From assembly GCF_001888165.1 (NCBI RefSeq), contig NZ_CP015455.1, forward strand, positions 2,970,001 to 3,034,000: a DNA stretch of 64,000 nucleotides, written 5' to 3'. Origin of the DNA: Syntrophotalea acetylenica (GTDB lineage: Bacteria; Desulfobacterota; Desulfuromonadia; Desulfuromonadales; Syntrophotaleaceae). Below are positions 41,541 through 52,533 of the stretch, piece by piece (positions within the stretch are counted from its first letter, which is position 1; each line of letters begins with the position of its first letter). The notes under the pieces are model-generated. The model ran no database searches. It worked only from the letters and a program-made list of their open reading frames with translations, and had not been told where the DNA came from. Made by a program: the position numbers and the translations under genes.

Positions 41541-42407
41541 TCAGTAGAAAAAGGCAAAGCGAGCCTGAATCGACTTGGTCTCGACGCCGCTCTTGACCCC
41601 GAAGTCGTCCCGATACTGCAGCAGCAGCTGGTAATTGTCGCCGATATTGAAGGCGGAGGTGAACATCAGGGCATGATTGTCCTGATCGTCCTGCTGGTCG
41701 ATGCCGTCGATTTCGGTTTCGCCGCCGTTGGCGTAGAAATAGCTCAGGCCGAGCCACCAGCGCTTGGTGACATCATAGCTCACGTGCACTTCGGCGCCGT
41801 AGAGCGGGTCCTGCTTTTTGGTAACCGTTTCCTCCCCATTCCAGCAGTCGTCGTTGTCGCCGAAAATCGTGACATTGCCGATCAGGTCGATGTAAAGCGG
41901 CCCGAAGCCCTTGACCAGGCCGATTTCATTCTTGAGCGCCCAGCGGTTGGCGCCAAGGTTCAGCGCCCGTTTCTTGCTGTATTCGCCGATAGGAATGGTG
42001 AAGTAGGGCGTATAGCCGAGCCACAGCTGTTTTTCCGGGTTGTTGACGAACCAGGTGGTCATGAGAAATACCGGGTCGGCGATGCCGGAACTGGATGTAT
42101 CGTTGACCAGATCGCCATCGAGACTGGCTTCGCCGGCGATGATAAGGGCCTGCGGATCGACCACGAACGGCCCGAGATTGGTGTAGTACACCGGACGGAA
42201 GATGACGATATTCTGGCTGAGATTGAAATCGGTGGAAACGACCTGGTCATCGTTCTTGAGGCGGTGGCCGGTGATGTGCTGCAGGTAGGTGCAGAACAGC
42301 ATACTGCCGGCCGGCAGCGGGATGTAGTCACGGGGATCGGCCGATCGGGCCAGATCCGGCACCAAAAAAGCGCTCAGCAGAACGCTGATGATCAACAATC
42401 TTTTCAT
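41541..42407 (-). CDS. Outer-membrane transporter of the phenol-degradation MetA-like family
   Basis: The 288-residue protein has a signal peptide (LLIISVLLSAFLVPDLARSA) and a barrel-like sequence ending QARFAFFY. LPAGSMLFCTYLQHITGH, IVIFRPVYYTNLGPFVVDPQ, GLVKGFGPLYIDLIGNVTIF and YDVTKRWWLGLSYFYANGGE fit PF13557, outer-membrane proteins linked to uptake of small organic compounds. It is 66 bp downstream of the second Fe-ADH gene and before a terminator, so it is the last gene of that operon and may admit alcohols. AGGAGG precedes ATG 42407. Confidence 0.8.
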   Translation of the reverse strand: MKRLLIISVLLSAFLVPDLARSADPRDYIPLPAGSMLFCTYLQHITGHRLKNDDQVVSTDFNLSQNIVIFRPVYYTNLGPFVVDPQALIIAGEASLDGDLVNDTSSSGIADPVFLMTTWFVNNPEKQLWLGYTPYFTIPIGEYSKKRALNLGANRWALKNEIGLVKGFGPLYIDLIGNVTIFGDNDDCWNGEETVTKKQDPLYGAEVHVSYDVTKRWWLGLSYFYANGGETEIDGIDQQDDQDNHALMFTSAFNIGDNYQLLLQYRDDFGVKSGVETKSIQARFAFFY

Positions 42408-42473: not shown

Positions 42474-43640
42474 TTACATGGCCGCCCGGTACAGGGCCAT
42501 GATTTCATCGATGCTGATCAAGCGCGGATTGGTCAGACAGCAGACATCCTTCGAAGCGTTTTGCGCCAGAATCGGGATATCGTCTTCCTTGACACCCAGC
42601 TCACCCAGGCCGGCGGGAATGCCGACATCCGCCGACAGCCGCCGCATGGCCGCGATGGCCTTTTGGCCGGCATCCATGACGGACAGGCCGGTCACGTTCT
42701 CGCCCATGGCGACGGCGATGTCCCGGAACCGCTCGGGACAGGCGATGAGATTGTACTGTTCGACCACCGGCAGCAGCACGGCATTGCATACCCCGTGTGG
42801 CAGATTGTAAAAGCCGCCAAGCTGATGCGCCATGGCATGCACGTGGCCGATGAAGGCGTTGTTGAAGGCCATGCCGGCCAGGTATTCGGCAAAGGCCATG
42901 CCTTCGCGGGCTTCGAGGTCCTGGCCGTTGGCCACGGCCTTGCGCAGCCACTTGGCGATCAGTTCGATGGCCTGCAGACCGCAGGCGTCGGTGGCCGGAG
43001 TGGCCATGATCGAAACATAGGCCTCCACGGCGTGGGTCAGGGCGTCCATGCCCGTGGCGGCGGTCAATGCCGGGGGCAGACCGACCATGAGCAGGGGGTC
43101 GTTGATGGCGACCGTGGGAGTGATCTGGGCGCCGCCAATGGCCATCTTGACGTGGTTGTCGGTATTGGTGATGACGCAGAAAAAGGTCATCTCGCTGCCG
43201 GTGCCGGCCGTGGTGTTGATGGCGATCTTGGGCGGGGTCGGTTTGGCGATCTTGCCGACGCCCTCGTAATCGCGGATCGAGCCACCGTTGGTGGCCACCA
43301 CGCCGATGGCCTTGGCGCAGTCATGGGAGCTGCCGCCGCCCAGGGATACGATCAGATCGCAGCCGTTGTCCCGGTAGACTTTGAGGCCGGCTTCCACATT
43401 TTTGTCGGTCGGGTTGGGTTCGGCACCATCGAACACGACCACCTGCAGACCGGCTTCTTCCAGGTTGGCCTGGATGTCGCCCGCCATGCCGAGCTTGACC
43501 AGCCCCTTGTCGGTGACCAGCAGGGCCTTTTTGCCGCCGGCCTTTTTCGCTTCGGCGCCGGCCTGTTTGGCGGCGCCTACGCCCAGCAGGCTGACCGTGG
43601 GAATATTGAAAACGAACGTCTGTTCTGCAAGAGCCCTCAT
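42474..43640 (-). CDS. Iron-containing alcohol dehydrogenase (second of a tandem pair)
   Basis: The 388-residue protein is a group III Fe-ADH: NAD loop GGGSSHDCAKAIG (about 101-113), NTTAGTGSEMT, and metal ligands in GMDALTHAVEAY (D199, H203) and HAMAHQLGGFYNLPHGVCNA (two His). It would oxidise ethanol or another primary alcohol or diol with NAD+, giving the aldehyde. It lies 36 bp downstream of a clear paralogue with the same length and motifs, followed by the outer-membrane gene. ATG 43640 has AGAGGA close upstream; the longer ORF from 43667 adds nine residues. Substrate preference cannot be read. Confidence 0.92.
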   Translation of the reverse strand: MRALAEQTFVFNIPTVSLLGVGAAKQAGAEAKKAGGKKALLVTDKGLVKLGMAGDIQANLEEAGLQVVVFDGAEPNPTDKNVEAGLKVYRDNGCDLIVSLGGGSSHDCAKAIGVVATNGGSIRDYEGVGKIAKPTPPKIAINTTAGTGSEMTFFCVITNTDNHVKMAIGGAQITPTVAINDPLLMVGLPPALTAATGMDALTHAVEAYVSIMATPATDACGLQAIELIAKWLRKAVANGQDLEAREGMAFAEYLAGMAFNNAFIGHVHAMAHQLGGFYNLPHGVCNAVLLPVVEQYNLIACPERFRDIAVAMGENVTGLSVMDAGQKAIAAMRRLSADVGIPAGLGELGVKEDDIPILAQNASKDVCCLTNPRLISIDEIMALYRAAM

Positions 43641-43676
43641 ATCTTCCTCTCTTTCCTGAAATCGCAACGGGAATAT

Positions 43677-44846
43677 TTACATCGCCTTTTTGTACAACTC
43701 GATAATGTCTGCAACCTTCACAGTGCGGGGATTGAACAGGGTGCAGACGTCTTTCATGGCGTTTTCGGCCATGACGGGAATATCCTTTTCGGTCACGCCG
43801 ATGGCGGCCAGACCTTTGGGAATACCGATGTCCCTGGACAGGCGACGGATAGCGGCGACGGCCTGTTCGGCCGCTTCCATGGTGGTGAGACCCTCGATGT
43901 TTTCGCCCAGAAGTTCGGCAACTTTGGCGTATTTTTCGGCGTTGGCGATAAGGTTGAATTCACATACCACCGGCAGGCAGATGGCGTTGCACACCCCGTG
44001 CGGCTTGCCCAGCAGACTGCCCGGCTGATGAGCCATGGAATGTACGATGCCCAGACCGGCGCTGTTGAAAGCCATGCCGGCCAGGTATTCGGCGTAGGCC
44101 ATGGCGTCGCGCGCTTCCAGGTCGGTGCCATTGGCCACGGCCTTGCGCAGCCACTTGCCGATCAGTCTTATGGCCTGCATGGCCAGGCAGTCCGTGACCG
44201 GGTTGGACAGCAAGGTGGTGACATAGGCTTCCACGGCGTGGGTCAGGGCGTCCATGCCGGTGGCGGCGGTCAGCGATGATGGCAGACCGACCATCAGGCC
44301 CGGATCGTTGACAGCCACGTCGGCGGTCAGACGGGCATCGCAGAACACCATTTTGACCTTGGTGTCGGTGTTGGTGACCACCGCAAAGCGGGTCATCTCG
44401 CTGCCGGTACCGGCGGTGGTGTTGATGGCGATGTAGGGCGGCAGGTCGGCCTGCAGGGTATCGATGCCGGCCCAATCGCGGATGTCGCCGCCGCTGGTGG
44501 CCATGATGGCCATGCCCTTGCCGCAGTCGTGGGAGCTGCCGCCGCCCAGGGTGACGAGCAGGTCACAGCCGTTGTCCTGCCACACCTTGAGGCAGTCGCG
44601 CACGTTGAGATCGGTGGGATTCGGCTCGGCTCCGTCGAAGACGGTTACGCTCAGGCCGGCTTCCTCCAGGTAGCCCTTGATCTGGTCGGCGACCCCGATC
44701 CTGGCCAGACCGGCGTCGGTGACGATCAGGGCCTTGGTGCCGCCCAGCACCTTGGCCTGCTGACCAACCTGCTTGACCGCTCCCAGCCCCAGGAGACTGA
44801 CCGTAGGCATATAGAATCCGTAAACCTTTTCTGCCATTGCTCCCAT
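43677..44846 (-). CDS. Iron-containing alcohol dehydrogenase (first of a tandem pair)
   Basis: The 389-residue protein shares GGGSSHDCGKGMA, NTTAGTGSEMTRFAVVTNTD, GMDALTHAVEAY and HSMAHQPGSLLGKPHGVCNA with its downstream paralogue, and so has the complete iron site and NAD site. Loops around HQPGSLLGKPHG differ from HQLGGFYNLPHG in the other copy, so the pair may have different substrates. AAGGAG lies nine bases before ATG 44846. A sigma-54 promoter candidate and an enhancer-like motif lie 130-240 bp upstream. In relatives such enzymes feed alcohol-derived electrons into NADH and the aldehyde into acyl-CoA. Confidence 0.93.
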   Translation of the reverse strand: MGAMAEKVYGFYMPTVSLLGLGAVKQVGQQAKVLGGTKALIVTDAGLARIGVADQIKGYLEEAGLSVTVFDGAEPNPTDLNVRDCLKVWQDNGCDLLVTLGGGSSHDCGKGMAIMATSGGDIRDWAGIDTLQADLPPYIAINTTAGTGSEMTRFAVVTNTDTKVKMVFCDARLTADVAVNDPGLMVGLPSSLTAATGMDALTHAVEAYVTTLLSNPVTDCLAMQAIRLIGKWLRKAVANGTDLEARDAMAYAEYLAGMAFNSAGLGIVHSMAHQPGSLLGKPHGVCNAICLPVVCEFNLIANAEKYAKVAELLGENIEGLTTMEAAEQAVAAIRRLSRDIGIPKGLAAIGVTEKDIPVMAENAMKDVCTLFNPRTVKVADIIELYKKAM

Positions 44847-44973
44847 GATGCATTTCTCCTTCTGTTGTGTAACGGGTTAAAGAGAGCATGCGGACGGTGC
44901 CGGCATGCACATAACAACGAACCGCGGCTGCATCCTCCTCCACAAAGCCAACGGTGAATCCGCAACACACCAG

Positions 44974-44990
44974 AGCAGAGAACATACCAA
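44974..44990 (-). promoter_or_regulatory. Sigma-54 promoter of the Fe-ADH operon
   Basis: On the minus strand TTGGTATGTTCTCTGCT has GG-N10-GC spacing and matches 10 of 13 defined positions. The TGCAACG heptamer lies 78 bp upstream of its GG, as at the two related promoters. Confidence 0.6.
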
Positions 44991-45048
44991 GTATCGTAAA
45001 CGGAAATTATGTTTTACTTTCAATATGTTGAATAAAATTCGCAGGCCT

Positions 45049-45085
45049 TGCGCAACCTTTTGGGGTGCAACGAATCCTGCAAATT
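45049..45085 (-). promoter_or_regulatory. Enhancer-like site upstream of the Fe-ADH operon
   Basis: On the plus strand this contains TTGCGCAA, then GGGGTGCAACG (TGCAACG at 45066-45072), then TGCAAA. In gene orientation it reads CGTTGCACCCC-AAAA-GGTTGCG, a loose dyad. The rest of the gap 44847-45283 holds no gene. Confidence 0.6.
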
Positions 45086-45283
45086 TAGAACGATGTTTTT
45101 AGGGAATTGCCAGATGAAAACCAGAATAAAGCAGATTTGTCAGCGGCCAGCAAAGGGATGCGCAAGGGGATGCAAGAAAGATTGACAGAACAGAAAGATA
45201 AATTGAGGAACTATAATCCTCGGATAAAACGCCTTCTCAGCTTTATGCCGCAGCGATGCCACGGCACGGACTCACGACGAAAT

Positions 45284-46711
45284 TCAACGCCCGTCAGGCG
45301 GCTCCTGACGTTTGAGGCGCTGGTTGAGAGCCTGCCGCGAGATCCCCAACAGGGTCGAGGCGACCCCTTGATTGCCTCTGGCCAGATCCATGGCGGCCAT
45401 AATCAGCAGCCTGTCCATCTCCCTCAGGGTGGGAAACCGCCCGAACAGAGTGCGCAACCGTTCGGCGGCGGGCCGATCCCGATCCGGAGAGGGTAATTGC
45501 ACGGTTTTTTCGCGGCAGATCACGCTTTTGAAGCTGTCCATGGACAGCACGCCGGACTGATGCCGGGCCACGGCATCATAAACCATGGCCTGCAGCTCCC
45601 GCACATTGCCCGGGAAGGCATAGCTGCCGAGCAAACGCGACAGTTCCGGATTGGAAACCGGCGGCTTCTTGTGAAATTCCCTGGCCGCCCTGGTGACGAA
45701 ATAATCGAGCAGAACGGGGATGTCCTCGAGCCGCTCGCGCAGCGGCGGGATATGCACATGATGGGCGCAGAGCCGGTAATACAGGTCGCTGCGGAACTGC
45801 TCTTTGCTCATCATCTGCTGCAGATTCTTGTTGGTAGCCACCACCACGCGGGCGTCGCTCTTGCGCGGCACATCGGAACCGATGGGGTAGTACTCCCCCT
45901 CCTGCAACAGGCGCAGCAGTTTGACCTGAGAGGCTTCCCCGAGATCACCGATTTCGTCGAGAAACAGGGTGCCACCGGCAGCCTGGGATATCAGTCCTGC
46001 CCGCGGCCGGTCGGCGCCGGTAAACGCGCCGCGCTCGTGGCCGAACAGGGTATCGGAAAACAGGTTGTCATCCAACCCGGCGACATTGACGCATACCAGC
46101 TTGCCGGCAAGTCTGCTGAGCTGATGGATGGCGGTAGCGAACAGTTCCTTGCCAACACCGGTTTCGCCGGTTATGAGAATCGGCTGGCGGGAGCAGGCGA
46201 TGACCTCCATGTAGCGGAAGATGGCGGTCATCTTCTTGCTGCAGGTAATGATCGGGGCGAACACTTCGGGGTGTTCGAGCTGATCCGAAAGCAGCTGTTC
46301 CTTGAGCAGATGCACTTCGTTGCGCAGGTTGCACAATTCCAGGATGCGCTGCACGCTGGTCACGAAGCGGGTTTTATCGACCGGTTTGACCAGATAATCG
46401 TGGGCGCCGCTCTTCATGCACTGCACCGCCAGCTCCAGTTCGTCGCTGGCGGTCATGATCAGCACCGGAATGTGGGGATATTTGCGGCAGATATCGATCA
46501 GCAATTCCTGGCCGGAAACATGGGGCATGAACAGGTCAAGTACGATGACACCGAAATTGCGTTTGGCCAGCAGGGGCATGACCAGACGGCTGTCATCGCA
46601 GGTCTCGACCTCGCGAATCCCGGCGCTGCGCAGAATGGTACGGGAACTGAAAAGGATGTTGGGCTCGTCGTCGACCAGCAGAACCGGGAGAGTGTCACAG
46701 CCAGGCACCAT
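45284..46711 (-). CDS. NtrC-family sigma-54 response regulator
   Basis: The 475-residue protein has a receiver domain (D14, D15 in LLVDDEPN, phospho-acceptor D59 in [13 protein letters not shown], Lys in DYLVKPVD), an AAA+ domain with [25 protein letters not shown] and FRSDLYYRL, and a Fis-type C-terminus ([20 protein letters not shown]). It activates sigma-54 promoters when phosphorylated. It lies 150 bp downstream of pta, and the five-PAS kinase encoded at 49544 is the likely partner. Three sigma-54 promoter candidates with a common upstream motif lie within 5 kb, so a local regulon is likely. AAGGAGG precedes ATG 46711. Confidence 0.93.
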
Positions 46712-46861
46712 GGTATCCAGCCTCCTTGCGGTGGATGGCGACGGGCCTGAAGCTTAGCCCGCCGCATGGGTTGCACCGGGGCTGCGCCCGGCGACCAGGA
46801 CATTCTACCCGCCGGGCGAAAATATTGCCAGACCTGCGTTAGCGCCGGACCGGAAGGCCGC

Positions 46862-47863
46862 TTACCCCAGGCTCTGCACGGCGGTCATCGCCACCGTACT
46901 GACAATGTCCTCCACCGTGCAGCCGCGGGACATGTCGTTGAACGGCCGCGCCAGACCCTGTACCATCAGCCCCGCCGCCTGGGCCCCGGCAATGCGCTCG
47001 GTCAGCTTGTAACCGATATTGCCGGCATTCAGATCGGGGAAAATGAGGGTATTGGCCCGGCCGGCAACCGGCGATCCCGGCGCTTTCTGGCTGGCGACCT
47101 GGGGGACGATGGCGGCATCCAGCTGCATTTCGCCGTCGATCAGCAGTTCCGGCGCCAGACTTCGGGCGATCTGGACCGCCTGCCGCACGCGGCGCACCTC
47201 CTCATGGTCGGCGCTGCCCATGGTGGAAAAGGACAGCATGGCCGCCCGCGCCTCCACCCCCAGCAGGCTGCGGCAGCTGCGCGCGGTGGTTACGGCGATT
47301 TCGGCCAGTGCCTGCGCATCGGGACGGGGATTGACCACGCAATCGGCGAATAGCAGGGTGCCGTTTTCACCGAGCTCCGGCCGGGGAGTCACCATCAGCA
47401 TCACCGAAGAAACGGTACGGATGCCGGGGGCGGTGCCGACCACCTGCAAAGCCGCGCGCAGTACATCGCCGGTACTGTTAAAGGCTCCGGCCACCGCGCC
47501 GTCGGCATCTCCTTTGCGTACCATCATGGCCGCGAAGTGCAGTTGATCCAGGGCCAGCAACTGTTTGCAGGCTTCGCCGACGGTAAGCCCCTTGTGCTTG
47601 CGCAGATCCGCCAGTTCTTCAGCATAATCCTGCAGCAGGGCGCTGGCAGCCGGTGCCAGCAGCGTTACCCGGCTCAGATCCGCACCGACCGTCTCGGCCC
47701 GGTTCAGAAGAGACTCGGGGTCGCCGAGCAGCACGATGCGGGCCAGCCCTTCCCCGGCAATACGGCCGGCAGCCAGCAGCATACGGTCATCGTAACTTTC
47801 CGGCAACACGATGGTCTGCGGTTGGCGCCGCGCGTTTTGCTTGATCTGCGATATAACATCCAT
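46862..47863 (-). CDS. pta: Phosphate acetyltransferase (PTA_PTB family)
   Basis: The 333-residue product begins MDVISQIKQNARRQPQTIVL and has GDADGAVAGAFNSTGDVLRA, GIRTVSSVMLMV, FADCVVNPRPDAQALAEIAV and NAGNIGYKLTERIAGAQAAG, all typical of short-form phosphotransacetylase rather than phosphotransbutyrylase. It converts acetyl-CoA and phosphate to acetyl phosphate. GGGGGA lies five bases before ATG 47863. The partner kinase gene upstream belongs to the butyrate kinase family, so propanoyl- or butanoyl-CoA may also be used. A near-consensus sigma-54 promoter lies about 60 bp upstream. Confidence 0.87.
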   Translation of the reverse strand: MDVISQIKQNARRQPQTIVLPESYDDRMLLAAGRIAGEGLARIVLLGDPESLLNRAETVGADLSRVTLLAPAASALLQDYAEELADLRKHKGLTVGEACKQLLALDQLHFAAMMVRKGDADGAVAGAFNSTGDVLRAALQVVGTAPGIRTVSSVMLMVTPRPELGENGTLLFADCVVNPRPDAQALAEIAVTTARSCRSLLGVEARAAMLSFSTMGSADHEEVRRVRQAVQIARSLAPELLIDGEMQLDAAIVPQVASQKAPGSPVAGRANTLIFPDLNAGNIGYKLTERIAGAQAAGLMVQGLARPFNDMSRGCTVEDIVSTVAMTAVQSLG

Positions 47864-47924
47864 TGTCATCCCCCGATAACATCCGGTTTGGCCAGTCGCC
47901 TGCCACCAGGTCATGCCTTGGGTA

Positions 47925-47942
47925 AAGCAGCGACCGTGCCAG
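47925..47942 (-). promoter_or_regulatory. Sigma-54 promoter of pta
   Basis: The minus strand reads CTGGCACGGTCGCTGCT, matching 12 of 13 defined positions of the -24/-12 consensus with correct GG-N10-GC spacing. Transcription would start near 47915, about 50 bases before the pta ATG. Confidence 0.85.
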
Positions 47943-48010
47943 TCTGATAATTCTCAAAAACCCTCTATTTTTTAAAGCCTTACAACCACCAGCAAGCCAT
48001 CCATGCTCCC

Positions 48011-48054
48011 TCAAGGGGCTGCAACGAAATATTCATGTGCAAAAAATATTGCAC
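48011..48054 (-). promoter_or_regulatory. Enhancer-like sites upstream of pta
   Basis: GGGGCTGCAACG (TGCAACG at 48020-48026, 80 bp from the -24 GG) is followed by the perfect dyad GTGCAA-N6-TTGCAC at 48037-48054. The motif recurs at the Fe-ADH and kinase promoters. Confidence 0.65.
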
Positions 48055-48075
48055 GAAACAGCGCTTGCAATCCCC

Positions 48076-49161
48076 TCAGCGCGGAGCATAAACTCGCGCA
48101 AATTCCTCGTTCCGCAACACGCGCAGGGCGCCCTGTGCAAGAGCGAGCATTTCGTCCTCGCCCGGATAGGCCCAGACGGTGGCGATCCACCCGACCCTTT
48201 CGCGGATCCATTCGACCAGTTCACTCCAGTGCGCCACCCCGCCGGTCAGCACGATGGCATCGACATCGCCGTTCAGCACGGTAGCCATGGCGCCGATTTC
48301 CTTGGCGATCTGGTAAGCCATGGCCCGGGCCACTGCCAGGGCTTGGCTATCTCCGGCGGCGATGCGGCGGCCTACCTCGATGGCCGAATTGGTCCCCAGA
48401 TAGGAAACCAGGCCCCCTTGCCCGATGAGCTTTTTCTTGATTTCCGCCTTCGTACAGGTACCGCCGAAGCAAAGCTCGACCACATCGAGCAGCGGCAGGG
48501 TGCCGCTGCGCTCCGGGGAAAAGGGCCCGGCATCGAGAGCGCCGCTGACATCGACCATGCGGCCATGCCGATGGGCGGTGACGGAGACGCCCCCGCCGAG
48601 ATGCGCGATGATCAGATTGAGTTCTGCGTAATCCGCAAAATGGTCGGCGGCGGCGCGACGGGCCACCGCCTTGATATTCAGGGCATGGCCAATGCTGTGC
48701 CGCTCGATACCGGCCAGGCCGGAATACCGGGCGATGTCGTCCATTTCGTCCACCGTCACCGGGTCGACGGTAAAGGCCGGCGCGCCGGCGAGACCGGCGA
48801 TCTCCCTGGCAATCAGCACGCCCAGGTTGGAGGCGTGCTCACGGGGACCGATGGCCCGCATTTCCTCCAGCATGGATTGATTGACGGCGTAGGTACCGCT
48901 TTCGAGGGGACCGAAAAGGCCGCCCCGGCCGACGACGGCATCCAGCCCGTTCACAGCGACGCCGTGCTTTTCAAGCCAATGCAGCACCGAATCGCGCCGG
49001 AAGGAATACTGGTCCGGCACATGGGCGAAGGGCGCCAGGGCATCCGTGTCGTAGCGCAGGGTTTCCTGCAACAGCAGGGTGTCGTTTTCAAACAGGGCGA
49101 CCTTGGTCGATGTGGATCCCGGATTGATGGCGAGAATCCGATAGTTGGCATGTGTCGACAT
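48076..49161 (-). CDS. buk: Butyrate kinase-family acyl kinase
   Basis: The 361-residue protein starts with the ASKHA phosphate loop ILAINPGSTSTKVALFEN and has FRRDSVL, GRGGLFGPLESGTYAVN, HASNLGVLIAREIA, LIIAHLGGGVSVTAHRHGRM and IVLTGGVAHW. These and the length place it with butyrate/branched-chain acyl kinases rather than AckA, which is near 400 residues. It makes ATP from an acyl phosphate. With Pta next door it probably produces acetate or propanoate, butyrate being possible. AAGGAT precedes the ATG. A sigma-54 promoter candidate lies 90 bp upstream. Confidence 0.87.
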   Translation of the reverse strand: MSTHANYRILAINPGSTSTKVALFENDTLLLQETLRYDTDALAPFAHVPDQYSFRRDSVLHWLEKHGVAVNGLDAVVGRGGLFGPLESGTYAVNQSMLEEMRAIGPREHASNLGVLIAREIAGLAGAPAFTVDPVTVDEMDDIARYSGLAGIERHSIGHALNIKAVARRAAADHFADYAELNLIIAHLGGGVSVTAHRHGRMVDVSGALDAGPFSPERSGTLPLLDVVELCFGGTCTKAEIKKKLIGQGGLVSYLGTNSAIEVGRRIAAGDSQALAVARAMAYQIAKEIGAMATVLNGDVDAIVLTGGVAHWSELVEWIRERVGWIATVWAYPGEDEMLALAQGALRVLRNEEFARVYAPR

Positions 49162-49210
49162 GGCTTTATCCTTGGCAACCGGGTTGACATGAATACCTGG
49201 CAGGCAGCTT

Positions 49211-49231
49211 TTCCATCCGGATTTTCCGGAA
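49211..49231 (+). repeat. Dispersed repeat hairpin fragment R9
   Basis: TTCCATCCGGATTTTCCGGA is a degraded core palindrome. It lies between the kinase start codon and its -24/-12 promoter, thus in the mRNA leader. Confidence 0.5.
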
Positions 49232-49248
49232 GGTGAAGATGTACAATC

Positions 49249-49265
49249 AGCAAGCCCGATGCCAG
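49249..49265 (-). promoter_or_regulatory. Sigma-54 promoter of the acyl kinase gene
   Basis: The minus strand reads CTGGCATCGGGCTTGCT, 11 of 13 defined positions with GG-N10-GC spacing. It would start a transcript near 49238. Confidence 0.78.
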
Positions 49266-49330
49266 TCCTGTGCGATGGTGCAACTATTCGTAATTTAATA
49301 TAATTATATGGTTTAAAGCAGGATGTTCAC

Positions 49331-49354
49331 GCCCCATGGGGATGCAACGCGGTG
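49331..49354 (-). promoter_or_regulatory. Enhancer-like site upstream of the acyl kinase gene
   Basis: GCCCCATGGGGATGCAACGC contains TGCAACG at 49343-49349, 80 bp from the -24 GG. In gene orientation TTGCATCCCC-AT-GGGGCGTGAA is a near-dyad. No gene is seen in the rest of 49162-49543. Confidence 0.62.
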
Positions 49355-49543
49355 GCGGAGGCATACAAGAGAAGAGCGGTTGAGAAAGGCGGTCGTATCA
49401 GGATCGACCAGGGCCATGGAAAGGCTCTGCAATAGCAATAAATCTTGCAGGCATGGCCGCCATCCCGGACGTCACTTACGGCTGAGCCCAACCTGTATTT
49501 TTCTGCCAAAGCGCTTCGAACGTCTCTCTCTTGCCGGGCAGTT

Positions 49544-52294
49544 TCAAAGTACCGGTAGCGTCACCGTAACCGTGGTCCCGACTCCAACCGTCGATTCAAA
49601 ATCGATGGTACCCTTGTGATCGTTGATGATGGCGTAGCAGATCGACAGACCCAGCCCGGTTCCGCCGGATTTGTGCCTGGTGGTGAAAAACGGATCGAGG
49701 ATGCGGCCACGGATTTCCTCGGGGATGCCGATACCCTGATCGCGGATCCTGATCACCACGGCGCGGGGTGCCTGTTGCAGGGACGTCGAGAGGAAAACGC
49801 CGGACTGACGATCCGGAAGGGCCTGCAGGGCATTGATGAGCAGGTTGATGACAACCTGCTCGATCTTCTGGTAATGCCCCATGATCCGCGGCAGCCCCTC
49901 TTTCAGGTCACAGCTGAAATGATCGGTACTCTGCTTGATCTTGTTGGCCAGAATCACCAGCGCGGCGTTTATGACCCGGTTTATGTCGAAGGGGCGCCGC
50001 ATCGCCTCATCGTCCTGGCGGGAAAAATCCTTGAGGCTGCTGACAATATTCTGAATGCGCCGGGAACCTTCAATGAGACTCCCCAGCAATTGGGGAATAT
50101 CCCTGAGAGCCTCCCCGACGGGCAAACCACCGATGGTAAGATCGGGACGATGCTCGGCATGCTCCTGCAGGCTGCGGCGGATATCGGGCCAGGCCTCCTC
50201 CAGAAACTGGGCATTTGCCAGCAAATAATTGTTGGGATTGTTGATTTCGTGGGCGATCCCCGAGGCCAGGGTGCCAATGGCGGTCATCTTGTTGGCCTGG
50301 ATCAGTTTGGCCTGCATCTCACTACGCTCCTTACGGATGCGCAGTTTTTCGGTGATATCGCGAAAGGTGCCGTAAAGATAGACCTGCCCCCTGGAGCGCA
50401 GCAGCCGGCCGCGAAACGCGGCCATTACCGTATTGCCGCGACGGTCCACGGTGCCCAGGGGGGAAATCTGGCTCCAGGGGGCATCATCGCGGCAGACACC
50501 CTGCTTGCCGGCGAGCTTTTGGGAAAATGAGGCCAGCACTGCCGGCTTCATGAGCAGTGCGAGGCCACCGGAGCGTAAATGCTCCTTTCCATAACCATAA
50601 AGCCTCACCGCCGCCGCATTGGCATCGAGAATCGACAGGCTGTGCGGATCGAGCAGGAACGCCGCATCTTCATTCTGTTCGAAAATCTGCCGGAAAAGCT
50701 CCTCGCTTTCCCGCAGGGCGACTTCGGTACGCTTGCGCTCGGTTATGTCGGCAAGGATGCCGACGGTCCCGATGATTCTGCCTTTTTGATCGTACAGGGG
50801 CGCGGTGGAAAAGCTGATATCCAGCAGGGTGCCGTCCTTGCGGCGGCGGCGGGTTTCCTGACCGTGAAATTTCTCGCCCCGGTTCATGCGGGCCAGGTTT
50901 TCCAGAAACTCGGATTCCTGCCCTTCGGGGACCAGACGGTAACGCTGGCCCAGCACCTCCTTTTCGGTCCAGCCGAACATCTGCTGGGCGGCGGGGTTCC
51001 AGAGCTCAATGCAGCCTTGCCGGTCCAGCACGAAAATTGCCAGCGGCGACGCCTGGATGGTCGCCTGCAGGGTCTGGTTGACTTCCCGCAGGGCGATCTC
51101 CGCCCGGCGCTGCTCGGTAATATCGCGACTGGCGAAAATCGAGCCGGTTACCCGCAACCCCGCCATGGTGCACTTGGCTACCGTTTCCAGCCAGATGTAA
51201 TGCCCGTCCACATGGCGGTAGCGGAACTCTTCATGCACCCTTTTCTTTTCGGGCAGAGTGACCTGGAAAGCCTCCCGCATGCGTTCCATGTCGTCGGGAT
51301 GCATCCAGTCCCACAAGCAGGTACCGACCAAACCTTCATAATCGAAGCCGAGCATTCCTCGATGGGAAGGGCTGAGGTAGGTGAAAATCCCGTCCGTATC
51401 GGCGGTGCTCACCAGGGCCGGCATGTTGTCGGTAATGCGCCGCAGTTGCTCTTCGTTGTGGCGCAGGGCTTGCTCCGTGTGAATGCGATCGGTGACGTCG
51501 CGGCTGGCGAACACCGCACCGTTGATGCGGTTCAGCTTGTCGGTGGTGCATTTGGCGATGGTTTCCAGCCAGATGTAGTGGCCATCGGCATGCCGGTAGC
51601 GAAACTCCGCACGCACGCTTTTCAGCGCCGGCAAAGTCACCTGAAAGGTGATCCGCATGCGCTCCAGATCGTCGGGATGCATCAGATCGTACAGCCAGGT
51701 GCCGACCAGTTTTTCCGGGACAACCCCCAAAACCGGGCCGTGAGACGGCGAAAGATACCGAAAAAACCCGTGTTCATCGGCTTCACTGACCAGATCGAGC
51801 ATGTTGTCGGTGATGCGGTGCAACAGGTCCTGGCGTTCATGCAGCGCCGCTTCGGCCCGCCGGCGCTCGGTCACATCCCTGATGATGCCGAGAATTCCGG
51901 CCGTGTTGTCCTCCAGTCGCAACGGTGCAATCTGAATGATGACCTCGCGGCGGCGGCCTTCATAACTGACGATGCTGGTTTCGTACTGATGACAGGGGAT
52001 CTTTTCCCGAAGCAGGAGGGTGTCGTTGTGGCGGTTGACATGAGCGATGGGGGGTAAAAATAAATCCCTGTCGGTTTTGCCGACGATCTGTTTATATTCC
52101 AGACCAAGCAAGCGCTCGAAGGCGGCATTGCATCGCTGATAGGTGCCATCGGCGTATTTGAAGAAAACCGGATCCGGTGCCAGACGAATGAGTTCATCGA
52201 ACAATTGCTGCCCGCCCGGGCTGCTGGCAGTGCCGTCAAGTGAAGGTTGACAACCTTTTTCTGCGGGGCCTTGCGGATTTCTGGACCGGACCAT
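49544..52294 (-). CDS. Multi-PAS sensor histidine kinase
   Basis: The 916-residue protein has no membrane segment. Five PAS/PAC units are visible: FDELIRLAPDPVFFKYADGT, LHRITDNMLDLVSEADEHGF, LRRITDNMPALVSTADTDGI, ATIQASPLAIFVLDRQGCIE and FRQIFEQNEDAAFLLDPHSL. Units 2 and 3 are so alike (RYRHADGHYIWLETIAKC, RYRHVDGHYIWLETVAKC) that they are a recent internal duplication. The kinase core has the H box GIAHEINNPNNYL, N box NLLINALQALP, G boxes DQGIGIPEE and GGTGLGLS. It is a cytosolic sensor and the probable partner of the sigma-54 regulator at 45284. GGAG lies six bases before ATG 52294; the ATG at 52306 has none. The signal is unknown. Confidence 0.92.
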   Translation of the reverse strand: MVRSRNPQGPAEKGCQPSLDGTASSPGGQQLFDELIRLAPDPVFFKYADGTYQRCNAAFERLLGLEYKQIVGKTDRDLFLPPIAHVNRHNDTLLLREKIPCHQYETSIVSYEGRRREVIIQIAPLRLEDNTAGILGIIRDVTERRRAEAALHERQDLLHRITDNMLDLVSEADEHGFFRYLSPSHGPVLGVVPEKLVGTWLYDLMHPDDLERMRITFQVTLPALKSVRAEFRYRHADGHYIWLETIAKCTTDKLNRINGAVFASRDVTDRIHTEQALRHNEEQLRRITDNMPALVSTADTDGIFTYLSPSHRGMLGFDYEGLVGTCLWDWMHPDDMERMREAFQVTLPEKKRVHEEFRYRHVDGHYIWLETVAKCTMAGLRVTGSIFASRDITEQRRAEIALREVNQTLQATIQASPLAIFVLDRQGCIELWNPAAQQMFGWTEKEVLGQRYRLVPEGQESEFLENLARMNRGEKFHGQETRRRRKDGTLLDISFSTAPLYDQKGRIIGTVGILADITERKRTEVALRESEELFRQIFEQNEDAAFLLDPHSLSILDANAAAVRLYGYGKEHLRSGGLALLMKPAVLASFSQKLAGKQGVCRDDAPWSQISPLGTVDRRGNTVMAAFRGRLLRSRGQVYLYGTFRDITEKLRIRKERSEMQAKLIQANKMTAIGTLASGIAHEINNPNNYLLANAQFLEEAWPDIRRSLQEHAEHRPDLTIGGLPVGEALRDIPQLLGSLIEGSRRIQNIVSSLKDFSRQDDEAMRRPFDINRVINAALVILANKIKQSTDHFSCDLKEGLPRIMGHYQKIEQVVINLLINALQALPDRQSGVFLSTSLQQAPRAVVIRIRDQGIGIPEEIRGRILDPFFTTRHKSGGTGLGLSICYAIINDHKGTIDFESTVGVGTTVTVTLPVL

Positions 52295-52533
52295 GGTCAA
52301 CTCCATGTCTTGTTAAAACACCCGACCGACGCGCTCCCCGCCAGGGGGGATGGCCTGTCTGAAACGATGACGATTCCATGATAGAGTAAACCCGATAAGC
52401 AACTGAAGTAAAAAATCAGGCTTTCACAGGCCATTGCAAGCATATAATGAACTTGCCTGAAGCCCCTGGGCTGGTTATGCTTTACCTACATCGTTCAACC
52501 GATCCGGGATACACAACCAACGGAAAATAATTT

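Follow-up and report, generated by a model that had tools for sequence, protein, structure and literature searches.

Predicted sigma-54 regulon of an NtrC-type response regulator with fixed-distance sites in an alcohol dehydrogenase, phosphotransacetylase and acyl kinase gene cluster of Syntrophotalea acetylenica

Syntrophotalea acetylenica is a bacterium that ferments acetylene and alcohols. A stretch of 64,000 nucleotides of its genome (NZ_CP015455.1, positions 2,970,001 to 3,034,000), hereafter the window, carries a cluster of alcohol dehydrogenase (ADH), phosphotransacetylase and acyl kinase genes together with genes for a histidine kinase and an NtrC-type response regulator, here called REG; the promoters of this cluster are the subject of the present analysis. 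The genes lie on the minus strand in the order kinase, BUK, PTA, REG, ADH1, ADH2 and outer-membrane protein (coordinates are those of the window unless a contig or locus is named). The kinase, HK (49544-52306), has about five PAS domains and is the presumed partner of REG; a kinase gene is found directly upstream of many REG homologs. BUK (48076-49161) is an acyl kinase of the butyrate kinase family (TIGR02707) and PTA (46862-47914) a phosphate acetyltransferase (TIGR00651), both above the respective cut-offs. Because PTA lies 150 bp upstream of REG, the regulator gene may be co-transcribed with pta and might thus be autoactivated. ADH1 (43677-44846) and ADH2 (42474-43649) are iron-containing alcohol dehydrogenases, and the last gene (41541-42407) encodes an outer-membrane protein of the Phenol_MetA_deg family, members of which also adjoin ADH in the relatives L010, L011, L012, L085 and L087 (L and G numbers denote loci and genomes of the comparison, G000 being the genome studied here).

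By domain criteria, REG (45284-46711) is an NtrC-type response regulator, that is, a bacterial enhancer-binding protein, comprising a receiver domain (PF00072), an AAA+ domain (PF00158) and a Fis-type helix-turn-helix (HTH; PF02954), all above the Pfam cut-offs, with the GAFTGA motif at residue 228 and GETGVGK as Walker A. Its best NCBIfam score is that of ntrC (TIGR01818), but 336.5 bits is far under the curated cut-off of 558.6, and REG is not NtrC itself. The same genome encodes a second REG homolog of 58% identity (G000:C1:2321992-2323197, in L061 and L088), which is frameshifted just before the HTH, the HTH stretch continuing in another frame.

Three -24/-12 promoters, all on the minus strand, precede the ADH operon (44974-44989, TGGTATGTTCTCTGCT), pta and possibly REG with it (47926-47941, TGGCACGGTCGCTGCT), and buk (49249-49264, TGGCATCGGGCTTGCT). 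Each has the GG-N10-GC core of sigma-54 promoters with flanking consensus, kept in orthologs, and they match 10, 11 and 11 of 12 consensus positions, respectively, in place of the 10, 12 and 11 of 13 given by a first-pass annotation made from the letters alone. On the plus strand, TGCAACG occurs at 45066-45072 (ADH), 48020-48026 (pta) and 49343-49349 (buk), 78, 80 and 80 bp from the -24 GG; in gene orientation, CGTTGCA stands 83, 85 and 85 bp before the T of TGG. The first-pass annotation had reported these promoters, boxes and distances, all of which were recovered on re-reading, and had regarded the constant spacing as hard to explain by chance, with which the genome-wide counts agree. The extended box CGTTGCANCCC has nine copies in the 3.2-Mb genome (three for a reversed-pattern control) and within the window is found exclusively at the three promoters, while none of the other six copies has a -24/-12-like site at the cluster distance, the best (10/12) being 138 bp off. 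A search for TTGCANCC followed, after a gap of 60-90 bp, by GGYNYN5YTGC gave six matches in the genome, three of them the cluster promoters, and none for the control. The bare TGCAACG, with which a genome scan had been proposed, is an unspecific 7-mer, with 10 copies in the 64-kb window.

Comparison of orthologous promoters, likewise proposed earlier, bore out the arrangement. Among 14 genomes of the family, the box is present at 17/17 available ADH, pta, buk and aor (aldehyde ferredoxin oxidoreductase, AOR) promoters from six genomes, 81-85 bp before TGG. The pattern TTGCANCC-N60-90-TGGYAYN5YTGCW yielded 17 matches in 6/14 genomes and none with the reversed control; 16 of the 17 fall in this cluster, where their gaps span just 73-77 of the permitted 60-90, and the remaining one lies elsewhere in the S. 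acetylenica genome (gap 84). The seventeenth cluster promoter, beside the 16 pattern matches, is a weaker pta site of G001, TTGCACCTCC. In L010, L011 and L012, the box is found at 8/8 equivalent promoters, counting the weaker GTTGCACCTCC and ATTGCACCCTCC, both from L012. An ortholog of REG (at least 85% identity) is encoded in five of the six genomes with boxes; in the sixth, G007, buk and aor carry boxes, but the contig breaks off within buk, short of the place where REG would lie. The eight other genomes contain neither a REG ortholog nor a pattern match; four of these carry REG homologs of 54-61% and four have none at E up to 1e-120. One family member, G009, has a 55% homolog only, without ortholog or boxes.

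The full candidate REG site is an inverted repeat of 16 bp, TGCAA-N6-TTGCA, predicted to occur at each promoter in a proximal and a distal copy, the latter having been missed in the first-pass annotation, which had correctly noted the shared proximal element. The proximal sites, all on the minus strand, are the dyad TGCAGGATTCGTTGCA followed by CCCC at ADH (45062-45081), TGAATATTTCGTTGCA followed by GCCC at pta (48016-48035) and CGTTGCATCCC, a right half only, at buk (49339-49349). The loose dyad CGTTGCA-CCCC read earlier is not upheld: the dyad proper stands on the upstream side of the CCCC run; that run is a conserved flank, not a dyad arm, and a dyad spanning it was dropped, since GGG appears on its far side in only some sites while TGCAA-N6-TTGCA beats shuffles. 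The distal dyads, also on the minus strand, lie further upstream than the proximal sites, by 105 bp at ADH (GTCAATCTTTCTTGCA followed by TCCCC, 45171-45186), 18 bp at pta (TGCAATATTTTTTGCA with 10/10 matches, 48038-48053) and 91 bp at buk (TGCAAGATTTATTGCT, 49434-49449). Across the family, their distance from the proximal TTGCA is kept promoter by promoter: -103 to -105 at ADH (4/5 promoters) and -18 at pta (4/5), neither being found in G001, -90/-91 at buk (5/5) and -171/-174 at aor (2/2). In total, the 17 promoters of the family contain 28 dyads of at least 8/10, against a mean of 1.6 and a maximum of 5 in shuffles.

Ahead of the ADH operon, an IHF-like sequence matching 8/9 positions (ATTCAACATATTG, 45021-45033, minus strand) lies halfway from the proximal site to the promoter. 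IHF-like 13-mers (at least 7/9) occupy -46 to -40 in 14/17 family promoters, the mean for all positional windows being 2.3. In sigma-54 systems, IHF often acts between the enhancer and the promoter, as has been discussed for Geobacter (PMC7962754); an IHF-like bend is our best guess as to why the distance would be fixed.

The pattern extends beyond the family. In the order as a whole (136 genomes), it has 28 matches in 15 genomes, the 17 family matches included, and one for the control. Because matches in four loci outside the family (L101, L102, L103 and L104) adjoin REG homologs of 48-60% identity, 61 distinct regulators, five orthologs included, were gathered from the loci at hand, of which 46 are followed within about 630 bp by a sigma-54-like site. 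For the position test, a matrix trained solely on the 17 family sites was applied to 32 unselected promoters accompanying REG homologs of 47-61% identity; this set excludes the five orthologs, the terminator-like L057, L058, L059, L104 and L131, near-duplicates, and L101 and L102, which had been fetched because of the motif. The best match falls within the six-bp interval -86 to -81 in 19/32 promoters, where a uniform distribution would give about 2 and 500 shuffles gave a mean of 1.9 and a maximum of 7. A set of 36 homolog loci, none fetched by motif, supplied 166 other sigma-54-like sites, of which 17 have theirs in this interval (Fisher p 6e-9). Earlier counts of 21/37 and 21/34 still contained L101 and L102, and earlier negative sets, with 8/44 and 8/43 in the interval, contained the motif-fetched L100, L103, L105 and L106. 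A motif-free scan of column information over 34 promoters (L101 and L102 included) peaks at the same place, with a weaker peak at -30. The homolog promoters contain 34 dyads of at least 8/10, spread over 21/32, where shuffles gave a mean of 2.6 and never more than 7; seven of the 34 occupy the proximal position, and many lie between -141 and -172. The targets seem to differ: by eye, their first residues suggest receiver proteins, a membrane protein, an ADH and others. Records titled Desulfuromonas, Geomonas, Geobacter, Deltaproteobacteria and Nitrospirae contain members of this subfamily, whose HTH core is GNQGxAxxLLGI[ST]RQALN[KQ]RL. On balance, this large subfamily of sigma-54 response regulators appears to share one promoter blueprint, with a distal TGCAA-N6-TTGCA and a proximal TTGCANCC half-dyad about 82 bp (+/- 3) before -24.

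Several individual loci deserve description. L107 and L109, from two other genera, hold a sister cluster of kinase, REG homolog (60%) and ADH (61%), with the proximal site at -79 (TGCCAC-N4-GTTGCA and TGCCAG-N4-CTTGCA). In Geomonas (L032, L033, L034 and L042), a pair of dyads comes after the REG homologs, one near -165 and one near -147 with a spacing of about 18 bp, for example CGCAACGGACGTTGCA. A 9.5-kb contig (L100, G114:C106) has three TTGCACCC with sigma-54 promoters before proteins that look secreted by eye; it encodes no REG homolog, one being present elsewhere in G114.

The gene order of G004 fits that of Pelobacter carbinolicus Pcar_2847-2853 in the accessible part of PMC3543383, and this species name is used for G004 on that ground. 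G004 encodes an acetylating-type aldehyde dehydrogenase between PTA and BUK, its best NCBIfam scores being those of acetaldehyde-CoA dehydrogenases, under their cut-offs. Both G004 and G007 have a fourth, divergent promoter with a box; in G004 the downstream gene is an AOR, probably aorA4 to judge from gene order, so that the P. carbinolicus cluster includes both acetaldehyde dehydrogenase and AOR. For aorA4, unlike aorA1-3, no riboswitch is reported in the accessible portion of PMC3543383, whose authors guessed ethanol production as the role of the two ADHs; in the open-licence literature searched, a single paper names any of four Pcar_28xx tags, and none mentions Pcar_2849. In S. acetylenica, the window contains no homolog (E up to 1e-5) of either the acetaldehyde dehydrogenase or the AOR of the P. 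carbinolicus cluster. Relatives of the dehydrogenase occur at three other places in the genome, where the whole-genome pattern search gave no match, no scan by hand having been made. The AOR genes of the genome were rejected as targets, no such promoter being present in the stretches scanned at five of six loci (the sixth match, L138, is part of a split gene); one AOR copy is split into two reading frames (G000:C1:2934687-2936425). The designation of the cluster as a "self-contained alcohol-to-acid regulon" was therefore overstated for this strain, because the enzymes leading from aldehyde to acetyl-CoA sit outside it. ADH, PTA and acyl kinase together point to an interconversion of alcohol, aldehyde and acid, and acetate is indicated because the L012 cluster carries an acetate uptake transporter gene (AceTr/Gpr1_Fun34_YaaH; L012:6482-7204 in G001) between buk and pta.

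The statistics of the letters establish the promoters, the sites, their spacing and their conservation in orthologs and beside distant homologs. From these we infer, as the first-pass annotation had suggested, that the neighbouring REG is the likely binder, activating sigma-54 promoters from an upstream site, and the cluster is very probably a local sigma-54 regulon governed by a single two-component system, in which REG acts at fixed-distance sites. The PAS kinase would phosphorylate REG, which would occupy TGCAA-N6-TTGCA at the distal copy and at the proximal copy (right half TTGCANCCCC), the latter held 81-85 bp upstream of the -24 TGG. An IHF-like bend in mid-gap may fold the DNA and bring the AAA+ hexamer to RNA polymerase-sigma-54 in a single fixed geometry; the ADH, phosphotransacetylase (with REG) and acyl kinase operons would be turned on together. 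In P. carbinolicus, the acetaldehyde dehydrogenase would join, presumably by read-through from the buk promoter, and aorA4 via its own divergent promoter.

A number of observations weigh against this reading. Judged by sequence, ADH has the weakest of the three -24/-12 sites, the proximal dyad has a poor left half, which at buk is unrecognisable, and the dyad alone is unspecific (40 matches of 8/10 in the window), its meaning coming from position. The IHF-like position is much weaker in homologs, with 10/34 (at least 7/9) against a mean of 4.5 over all windows, the best interval there, -44 to -38, being shifted by two bp and containing 13/34. No sigma-54-like site was found downstream of 15/61 regulators, in some cases because the locus ends; 13/32 homolog promoters have their best match outside -86 to -81, and the p-values are too small because these promoters are partly related by descent. 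In published P. carbinolicus arrays, Pcar_2851 and aorA4 were not differentially expressed according to the accessible part of PMC3543383, and the cluster is therefore not simply ethanol-induced. The match at C1:2856868 (gap 84) is unexplained and adjoins another sigma-54 activator. At this place (G000:C1:2856868-2856975, L064), TTGCAACCC stands 92 bp before a good -24/-12, about one helical turn beyond the cluster sites, directly behind the gene of a PAS-type sigma-54 activator and before one that looks radical-SAM-like by eye; for its gap and these neighbours it was dropped as a fourth target in the genome.

The sites could also be real and bound by another regulator, such as a different NtrC-type activator, with REG in the cluster by coincidence. 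TGCA half-sites are common among NtrC-type activators, REG is one of a large family whose members have their HTH in common, a second homolog is encoded in the genome, and the match just described adjoins a different activator. Against this, pattern matches and REG orthologs co-occur in the family, the same site stands just downstream of the genes of distant REG homologs with different targets, and the second homolog is frameshifted before its HTH; another binder is accordingly considered unlikely. Slightly less credence still is given to the idea that the spacing was inherited from one duplicated ancestral promoter and has no function. Spacer letters are indeed common to orthologous promoters, but those of ADH, pta, buk and aor differ, by eye, outside the site, the IHF-like stretch and -24/-12; the distance is unchanged beside distant homologs despite little shared sequence, and that of the distal site differs gene by gene. 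It is very improbable that the boxes are by-products of upstream terminator hairpins or of chance. A GCAAC-N4-GTTGC hairpin (by eye) and a T-rich stretch, likely a terminator, do occur just after the regulator gene in L057, L058, L059, L104 and L131; in the cluster, none of seven terminator-like sites in 44850-49600 overlaps the three sites, and the pattern counts are far above the controls.

A local regulon under an NtrC-type regulator such as REG is of a known kind, although the geometry here is unusually rigid. NtrC itself has the same receiver, AAA+ domain with GAFTGA and Fis-type HTH, and inverted repeats upstream of -24/-12. Its site consensus is TGCACC-N5-GGTGCA, as against TGCAA-N6-TTGCA here, where the targets are carbon enzymes. 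Clostridium beijerinckii, a member of a different phylum, and Desulfovibrio vulgaris offer further parallels, the D. vulgaris operon DVU2405-DVU2399 presumably including an ADH. As far as the accessible parts of the cited papers go, an NtrC enhancer still works over distances as long as 15 kb (cited in PMC4641369), in contrast to the constant proximal distance found here. D. vulgaris DVU2394 (PMC4641369) is likewise a sigma-54 response regulator, assigned to an energy-metabolism operon, DVU2405-DVU2399, with GSFTGA unlike the GAFTGA of REG. AdhR/SigL of C. beijerinckii (PMC7017808) also combines sigma-54 and a dedicated activator for ADH genes. The LuxO-controlled qrr genes of Vibrio (PMC4740811) are a precedent for sigma-54 enhancers under helical constraint, an NtrC-type activator acting there over loops of about 80-120 bp; the qrr lengths cluster about 11 bp apart and the targets are small RNAs, whereas here there is essentially one distance. 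Candidates about one helical turn away are few in the present data, namely L014 at -73 and C1:2856868 (92 against 81-85), and the best match of three homolog promoters is at -77, which is no whole helical turn. TGCAAC/GTTGCA was not found described as an enhancer in the accessible portions of the open-licence literature searched, where these letters were met as ArcA and FNR sites. New here are a predicted code for the site, a regulon that takes in aorA4, and a geometry that stays nearly constant in a regulator subfamily.

For P. carbinolicus, the proposed regulon offers a testable control circuit for enzyme copies of unsettled role (Pcar_2847/2848, Pcar_2851 and aorA4), and it bears on alcohol and acetaldehyde handling in an acetylene fermenter. 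It may also be a natural case for why some sigma-54 enhancers hold a fixed position, unlike NtrC enhancers. Site and distance seem valid for many members of the subfamily, which would provide a simple rule for regulon prediction in Desulfuromonadota and Nitrospirota; if the shared blueprint is true, the operons controlled by many orphan two-component systems could be read off directly from such a position-locked enhancer.

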